Positions 47,095 through 47,562 of a stretch of DNA of 64,000 nt are shown one piece after another. Position 1 is the stretch's first letter. Every line of letters begins with the position of its first letter. Both the position numbers and the translations under genes were made by a program. The DNA is from Chryseobacterium sp. SORGH_AS_0447 (lineage in GTDB: Bacteria > Bacteroidota > Bacteroidia > Flavobacteriales > Weeksellaceae): assembly GCF_030818695.1 (NCBI RefSeq), contig NZ_JAUTAR010000001.1:1110501-1174500 (forward strand), written 5' to 3'. The notes below the pieces were generated by a model that was given only the letters and a program-made list of their open reading frames with translations, searched no databases and was not told the origin of the DNA.

Positions 47095-47130
47095 GCGAAT
47101 AGCTGTTGGCTGTTGGCCTTGGCGATTCGC
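47095..47130. repeat. Inverted-repeat end, groL side
   Basis: GCGAATAGCT (47095-47104) is followed by three GTTGGC-like units and ends in ATTCGC, giving a self-complementary end. It lies 15 bp upstream of the groL ATG and pairs with the element at 47553-47562. Confidence 0.75.
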
Positions 47131-47153
47131 GGTTTTGATTTTATAATTTGATT

Positions 47154-47510
47154 TTAATTTCCATTCAGCCTGTTCCAAAGGGCGACAAGCTTCTTTTTTA
47201 ATGTTGTTAATTCTTCTAAAAGATTATGATAATCATCTTTGTTGATGTAGTTTAAATCTTTGGCAAGAATCAATTGGTTTTCGGCTTCATTGGACGATCC
47301 CAGTGCGATGTTGATGAAATTAGCGAATTCTTTGTCAGAATTTCTTCCGCTGCCTTCCGAAATATTATATCCAATGGAAGCGAATGATCTCCTGATCTGG
47401 GAAGTTAATCCAAAAATCTCTTCTTTAGGAAAATTTTTGGTTGAGGTATATATCTTTAAAGTTAACTGATTGCTCAATTGCCACACCTCAAACTTTTTAA
47501 AATCCCTCAT
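47154..47510 (-). CDS. Four-helix-bundle protein (S23/IVS family) between groES and groL
   Basis: This 118-residue protein matches the four-helix-bundle family first found encoded inside 23S rRNA intervening sequences: [59 protein letters not shown]. Relatives form basic pentamers that bind nucleic acid, including the Avd accessory of diversity-generating retroelements. Here the gene sits inside the groES-groL operon, framed by a 10-bp inverted repeat, so it should be co-transcribed with the heat-shock genes. It looks like a mobile-type insertion; no reverse transcriptase or 23S rRNA is nearby. Confidence 0.92.
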
Positions 47511-47552
47511 ACGCTATTTTCAACGCTGGAAAGCCATTTGCAAGAAGCCGGT

Positions 47553-47562
47553 AGCTATTCGC
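47553..47562. repeat. Inverted-repeat end, groES side
   Basis: AGCTATTCGC is the exact complement of GCGAATAGCT at 47095-47104. It touches the groES stop codon directly (47563-47565). Confidence 0.8.

Follow-up and report, generated by a model that had tools for sequence, protein, structure and literature searches.

Intervening sequences (IVSs) of 23S rRNA genes provide the closest comparison for the element described here. In Coxiella, the IVS carries a sense-oriented S23 ORF in a stem of complementary ends and is excised by RNase III, and the ORF is preceded by GACAGAT heptamers, the number of which varies between strains (available text of PMC4990558). According to the same source, IVSs took the place of small loops in rRNA helices, and their function and origin were still termed unclear in 2016 (PMC4990558). 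A second set of observations concerns heptanucleotide repeats. The units GGGAATC, GGGGA(C/T)T and TAACTGA were described in cyanobacteria, Xanthomonas and Beggiatoaceae (available parts of PMC4692102 and PMC4679880), with TAACTGA being reported for Beggiatoaceae, cyanobacteria and five Bacteroidetes (available text of PMC4679880), and with two heptad sites in convergent orientation being counted in Xanthomonas in 70 (Xcc) and 75 (Xac) cases (available text of PMC4692102). As far as the available text goes, 7-bp repeats are over-represented in many bacterial genomes and polymerase slippage is the sole suggested cause (PMC4679880, PMC4692102); the terms "S23" and "four helix" have no match in the main text of either paper. 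Finally, the Avd protein of diversity-generating retroelements belongs to a four-helix-bundle family that is described, in the available part of the source, as related to the S23 family (PF05635) in sequence and structure (PMC10053308).

The window, i.e., the whole stretch of 64,000 nucleotides from Chryseobacterium sp. SORGH_AS_0447 that was analyzed, contains an S23 gene between groES and groL, all three genes being encoded on the minus strand (Table 1). The first-pass annotation had described this gene and an exact 10-bp inverted repeat as a module that fills the gap between groES and groL, and this description was confirmed. The encoded protein belongs to the S23/IVP family over its full domain, matching PF05635 with an E-value of 1.1e-38 (132.2 bits versus a cut-off of 33.8; profile positions 1-105 of 106). 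It also matches TIGR02436 (E 5.4e-38) and the solved Xanthomonas protein XCC0516 (PDB 2gsc; E 2.5e-18), and the S23 proteins of the closest named Chryseobacterium relatives are 96% identical to it. The start of groL was taken as the ATG inside an ORF listed from 47178. Elsewhere in the window, a plus-strand ORF at 44391-44582 resembles an ORF antisense to the 3' end of groL (45434-45880), a likeness that suggests duplication of the groL tail at a distance of about 1 kb.

Table 1. Features of the groES-groL region, in window coordinates.
Feature	Position	Strand	Remarks
groES (upstream gene)	47563..47841	-	ORF; DNA match in 58/59 genus genomes
Upstream arm, degenerate heptads, in transcript sense GCGAATAGCTACCGGCTTCTTGCAAATGGCTTTCCAGC	47525..47562	-	limits set by eye
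Exact 10-bp inverted repeat, AGCTATTCGC	47553..47562		abuts the groES stop codon (47563)
S23/IVP four-helix-bundle gene, 118 aa	47154..47510	-	matches to PF05635, TIGR02436, PDB 2gsc
Downstream arm, heptad array	47095..47134	-	lag-7 scan found 47102-47134
Exact 10-bp inverted repeat, GCGAATAGCT	47095..47104		15 bases from the groL ATG
groL (downstream gene)	45454..47079	-	ORF; ATG at 47079-47077

The 76- and 52-bp gaps on the two sides of the S23 gene would be expected to share a perfect 10-bp inverted repeat about 0.003 times (calculated by hand with equal base frequencies). The 10-mer GCGAATAGCT has 3 copies in the 4.37-Mb genome, 2 of them at this site, compared with 7 copies of the backward control, and it is therefore not a dispersed repeat. 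It is the best-preserved portion of two arms of about 38 bp that consist of degenerate 7-bp repeats and score weakly as a pair on the general arm score (12). In the fold predicted by RNAfold for the whole element, the two 10-mers pair as the outermost stem (z -4.6); a search for known RNA families near the element gave a single match, which was below the gathering score and outside the element. As in 23S rRNA IVSs, the termini are complementary and can form a stem whose loop contains the sense S23 ORF, at a hairpin that is tolerated, as judged from RNAfold and from the junction statistics given below, and the Coxiella IVS has heptamers as well (available text of PMC4990558). Unlike these IVSs, the window element resides between groES and groL and not inside a 23S rRNA gene: it is hosted by a protein-coding operon, each of its arms is a heptad array of site-specific sequence, and its protein is under purifying selection.

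The genome of the window (G000) holds six PF05635 genes, each of which occupies the gap between two genes and has short degenerate repeats on both sides that are inverted relative to each other. The units vary by locus, being GGCTNNN-like at the window and GTTGATA, TTTGAAA or ATTGATA elsewhere. GCGAATAGCT as an end sequence common to the family had to be given up, as each site has its own short-repeat arms. When all PF05635 places were taken from single genomes, complementarity between the upstream and downstream flanks of one gene exceeded that between flanks belonging to different genes of that genome (G000, n=6, p 0.0013; G001, n=18, and G036, n=11, 5e-5 each). Both S23 flanks show an identity peak at lags 7, 14 and 21 that is absent inside the gene, with lag 8 somewhat raised.

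Genus, phylum and named-genome searches yielded 199 S23 ORFs in 186 of 201 loci. Of these ORFs, 176 were complete with both neighbours (9 lay at edges, 17 were partial), and 162 were left after removal of same-gene repeats. Grouping by neighbour similarity gave 71 junctions; because misassigned neighbours can split one site into several, junctions sharing either neighbour cluster were merged, and the resulting 64 junctions are the main count. With one locus per junction, the own-arm score was 14.94 versus 7.97 for cross-locus pairs (0/20,000 permutations). Individually, 37 of the 64 junctions reached the top 5% and 30 the top 1%, and 27 fell short of the top 5%; the finer split of 71 junctions gave 15.35 versus 8.06, with 44 in the top 5% and 29 in the top 1%. 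A lag-7 array (score of at least 8) was found at 46/64 junctions, compared with 16 for lag 8 and 1 to 7 each for lags 4-6 and 9-12. The S23 arms are intergenic tandem repeats of 7-bp units, as are the heptanucleotide repeats described above. They are also polarised: at the 40 of 64 junctions with an arm score of at least 12, the upstream arm has more G than C in 37, with 2 ties and 1 reversed case, and a count that combined the 71 junctions with 7 plasmid loci gave G-rich upstream arms in 50 of 53. Both neighbours are co-directional with the S23 gene at 55/64 junctions versus 208/372 for ordinary genes (Fisher 3e-6). It was shown by these data that complementary, 7-bp-periodic and polarised arms frame most of the S23 genes examined, and this architecture is considered firm. 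The groES-groL site, which the first-pass annotation had treated as a special case, is one instance of a framing seen at 64 conservatively merged junctions.

The architecture extends beyond the Bacteroidetes and to plasmids. From the 18 representatives in records not named Bacteroidetes, 9 were in the top 5%, namely two Atribacteria, one of four Omnitrophota, one of two Shapirobacteria and one of two Sedimentisphaerales junctions, one Rickettsiales, one Balneola and two others; none of the Campylobacteraceae, Alphaproteobacteria, Paceibacterota and Patescibacteria-named loci among these 18 was in the top 5%. The plasmid collection contained 41 records with an S23 match, mostly from cyanobacteria. 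Eleven cyanobacterial plasmid loci were opened, six of which had an arm score of at least 15, e.g., with GGGAACA/TGTTCCC or GGGTGTA/TACACCC arrays; exceptions were L222 with direct AAAAGCT/AAAAGCC arrays, L223 with no array and L225-L227 with weak arms. For ten of these loci (one near-copy dropped) the own score was 18.9 versus 10.0 for cross pairs (0/20,000), and some of the arrays have a unit of 8, not 7. On a Picosynechococcus plasmid (L231) an S23 gene lies between cas10 and a Cmr3-family gene, and on a Pseudanabaena plasmid (L222) between cas6 and cas4, with short-repeat arrays beside it in both cases. IVP is named in a figure legend of a CRISPR survey (PMC10910872, available text), and such S23-CRISPR links may be explained by cassette insertion.

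What the arm sequences follow was assessed from pairs of S23 genes. Across different junctions, arm similarity was 17.2, 16.1, 15.9, 17.1 and 19.8 for S23 identities of 20-35%, 35-45%, 45-55%, 55-65% and 65-80%, respectively. As S23 identity is without relation to arm similarity across junctions, the reading of the arms as a subfamily-specific recognition site was rejected. Within one junction, arm similarity is 70 for S23 proteins of 90-100% identity and drops to 25 for those of 45-55%, the pairs being non-independent, and where S23 proteins at the same junction could not be aligned by BLAST over 80 residues the arms differ by eye (L006 vs. L076/L089; L063/L081 vs. L084). In 45 distinct groES-groL orthologs, arm pairs from the same locus scored 16.5 versus 14.2 for cross-species pairs (0/20,000), and the two arms therefore change together. 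Judged from these comparisons, complementarity and period persist in the arms, whereas the sequence does not, and for this reason repair or slippage between the arms would fit better than a recognition site.

We assign a probability of about 0.5 to the reading that the window module is an IVS-like, hairpin-resident S23 cassette inside inverted heptad arrays, placed in a protein operon; the cassette is apparently transcribed from the host operon. In this model, S23 would lie inside paired inverted heptad arrays able to form a hairpin, and the element would survive as a selfish or nearly neutral occupant of sites that tolerate a hairpin, i.e., in the gaps between operon genes and in the loops of 23S rRNA helices. 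Slippage together with template switching or gene conversion between the arms, rather than a recognition sequence, would keep them complementary, and the Avd-related S23 protein might, by acting on nucleic acid in hairpin form, maintain or insert the cassette. As in rRNA IVSs, RNase III could cut the stem in the transcript, which would free the S23 RNA from the groES and groL messages. By this analogy, the common denominator of the Coxiella IVS and the operon cassettes is an S23 gene that occupies the loop of a hairpin which is tolerated. Selection for RNA pairing in the arms is expected to leave an excess of G-U mismatches, and 42 G-U versus 69 A-C mismatches were counted at arm scores of at least 12 and 35 versus 48 at scores of at least 16 (p 0.19), with cross-locus pairs leaning likewise (374 A-C versus 285 G-U). 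As G-U is not favoured, selection for pairing in RNA is unsupported.

It is also conceivable, if rather unlikely, that the heptad hairpins are host intergenic elements, such as slippage products or hairpins of mRNA stability or attenuation, and that S23 settles in their loops because it does least harm there, the protein being unrelated to the arms. This would agree with gene-less inverted arrays, which occupy the groES-groL gap in most of the 29 genomes that lack S23 there (described below) and are also present elsewhere in G000. Near-perfect heptad arrays of about ten units lie in G000 at L209:15164-15238 (TTGCTAG) and L205:3531-3597 (TAAACCA), in stretches without a PF05635 match, and the window itself has further lag-7 arrays at 18052-18077 (CTTCCAG-like) and 28288-28311 (GGAAGAG-like). 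It would agree as well with the number of arrays, which does not track the number of S23 genes: in seven sampled genomes stand-alone array density did not correspond to S23 dosage (G045, with no S23 match, has 3.6 arrays per 100 kb), and over 59 genomes the matches of one repeat pattern were not correlated with S23 copies (rho 0.19, p 0.14). However, G019 with 11 S23 genes has zero stand-alone arrays in 140 kb sampled, and the frequency of arrays beside S23 genes argues against a host origin. Lag-7 arrays in G000 number 5 per 0.74 kb of S23 flank versus 17 per 73 kb of sampled intergenic DNA, which is about 30 times denser, the filter being slightly stricter for the 73-kb count. Ordinary operon genes are also seldom framed. 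In a control sample of 464 kb of G000 (the window and 20 stretches), 66 genes that have similar gaps and lie between neighbours of the same direction, among them the window S23 gene and groL themselves, scored 9.89 for own and 9.66 for cross flanks, with just 2/66 in the top 5%.

A second, unrelated gene family that is framed as well speaks for host hairpins. The top-scoring control gene (L219:4944-5357, score 37, the next scoring 17) belongs to PF13366 (PDDEXK_3, GxxExxY, PD-(D/E)XK fold), which occurs in 59 of 118 genomes. For 30 PF13366 loci, the best-scoring ones of the phylum search, the own score was 17.0 versus 10.4 for cross pairs (0/20,000); 14 of the 30 are in the top 5% and 24 are co-directional on both sides. 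Among their arms, the common family resembles ACCACAGAG and lacks a 7-bp period. G000 has three PF13366 matches, two of which were looked at, the second with a perfect 20-bp inverted repeat. Framed GxxExxY genes inside operons were observed at L219:4944-5357, L292 and L234-L263. GxxExxY genes show a sister architecture to the S23 cassettes; flanking repeats are not the subject of the GxxExxY literature among the open-access matches listed, as far as their available text shows.

The first-pass annotation had favoured a unit that resembles a DNA transposon, with terminal inverted repeats of its own, and that jumps between sites, which we now regard as improbable. MITEs and REP elements are short inverted-repeat intergenic units. 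The S23 elements are like them in this respect and in having gene-less forms, and unlike them in that the arms of different copies have no conserved end sequence. Several observations would be expected of a transposon: the ends are inverted, G000 has 6 copies and a relative as many as 18, at least 64 junctions are occupied, and one junction occurs both with and without the gene. The ends are locus-specific, however, and terminal inverted repeats common to the copies were not found, with the exception of one pair, two Atribacteria S23s of 78% identity that share arms at different sites and form the top pair of the 65-80% class. At different sites, S23s of 45-65% identity have arms that resemble each other no better than those of pairs at 20-45% do, and the similarity rises slightly at 65-80%; GCGAATAGCT is not dispersed, and no transposition event was caught among the loci compared.

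The groES-groL junction in relatives bears on the same question. It was read in each of the 58 genomes in which groES was matched (one fragmented genome gave no match), and allele types were assigned by eye. As the first-pass annotation had supposed, junctions without the gene exist, in 29 of the 58 genomes. S23 is present in the other 29, as type A (GGCTNNN arms, like the window) in 20, type B (GCAGTAGGC-like arms with another S23 type) in eight and a third type, C, in one; in 2 of these 29 gaps (L009, L014) the S23 ORF from the start motif ends early. The gaps without S23 contain a short GTAAAATGTAC/GTACATTGTAC pair (type D, 11 genomes), a CAGATTTCAGAC/GTCTAACATCTGAC pair (type E, 15, three decayed-looking) or a remnant right arm (type F, 3). 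The types differ over the whole gap, and no clean empty site was found among the 58 genomes. On an rpoB tree (58 tips, 3234 columns) the types need 33 changes versus an average of 32.2 in 500 label shuffles, 367 of which were as low or lower, so allele type is without phylogenetic signal on this tree; a tree of the groES-groL flanks gave the same outcome (34 versus 32.2). Spill-over of alleles into the flanking genes was limited to a gain of +0.021 in third-position identity over the final 39 bases of groES (7/200 shuffles). The D arm pattern has 11 matches in 59 genomes, one per genome and 7 at groES-groL, which argues against transposition. The exact E 26-mer has 6 matches, all at groES-groL. 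With up to 2 mismatches it has 78 in 26 genomes, 12 at groES-groL and the rest dispersed (17 in G001, the maximum per genome), as a transposon would predict; six E-like matches are all equally far from another S23 gene. Gene-less alleles are at least 90% identical between species in 11/55 D pairs and 13/105 E pairs, at rpoB third-position identities of 0.68-0.89, and their similarity is unrelated to rpoB (rho about 0). The divergence of A-type S23, in contrast, tracks rpoB (rho 0.63, 18 loci), as in a long-resident gene, and recent jumping between sites is unsupported; B-type S23 hardly does so (rho 0.22, 6 loci). Amino-acid identity of A-type S23 is 0.88 versus 0.68 at third positions, which shows purifying selection on the protein. 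We read these patterns as an old resident S23 cassette that may have been lost or replaced repeatedly by gene-less hairpin alleles crossing species, or as a long-kept polymorphism, the two looking alike with one genome per species at groES-groL.

Movement via an RNA intermediate and a reverse transcriptase in trans, with S23 acting like Avd, is very improbable: the relatedness of PF05635 and Avd (available text of PMC10053308) as well as the co-direction and G-inward polarity would suit an RNA step, but, unlike in diversity-generating retroelements, no reverse transcriptase (RVT_1) match was found in G000 despite its six cassettes, and 27 of 59 genus genomes are without any, including G036 and G019 (11 S23 genes each) and G017 (14), which rules out such an enzyme as a general requirement.

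The reading as an IVS-like cassette in a tolerated hairpin connects subjects that are each known, i.e., the S23 family, IVSs and heptad repeats, and their association outside rRNA is new among the open-access matches listed, as far as their titles and the starts of their abstracts show. No paper tying S23 genes to flanking heptad arms was among these matches, a scope that covers open-access articles. As a bolder conjecture, against which we would still bet, S23/IVP proteins and, as a sister form, GxxExxY nuclease-fold proteins would be cosmopolitan hairpin-resident cassettes that, within host operons, build and keep complementary short-repeat arms around themselves; they would supply the agent so far missing behind rRNA IVSs and the unexplained heptanucleotide repeats of bacterial genomes, and gene-less arrays would be their remnants or non-autonomous forms. 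Where S23 genes are taken for operon partners, e.g., of CRISPR loci, the link may be due to insertion of the cassette and not to function. The rule that S23 genes lie within heptad arms in operons of several phyla joins the puzzle of the IVSs to that of the heptad repeats, and both become testable in an ordinary Chryseobacterium.
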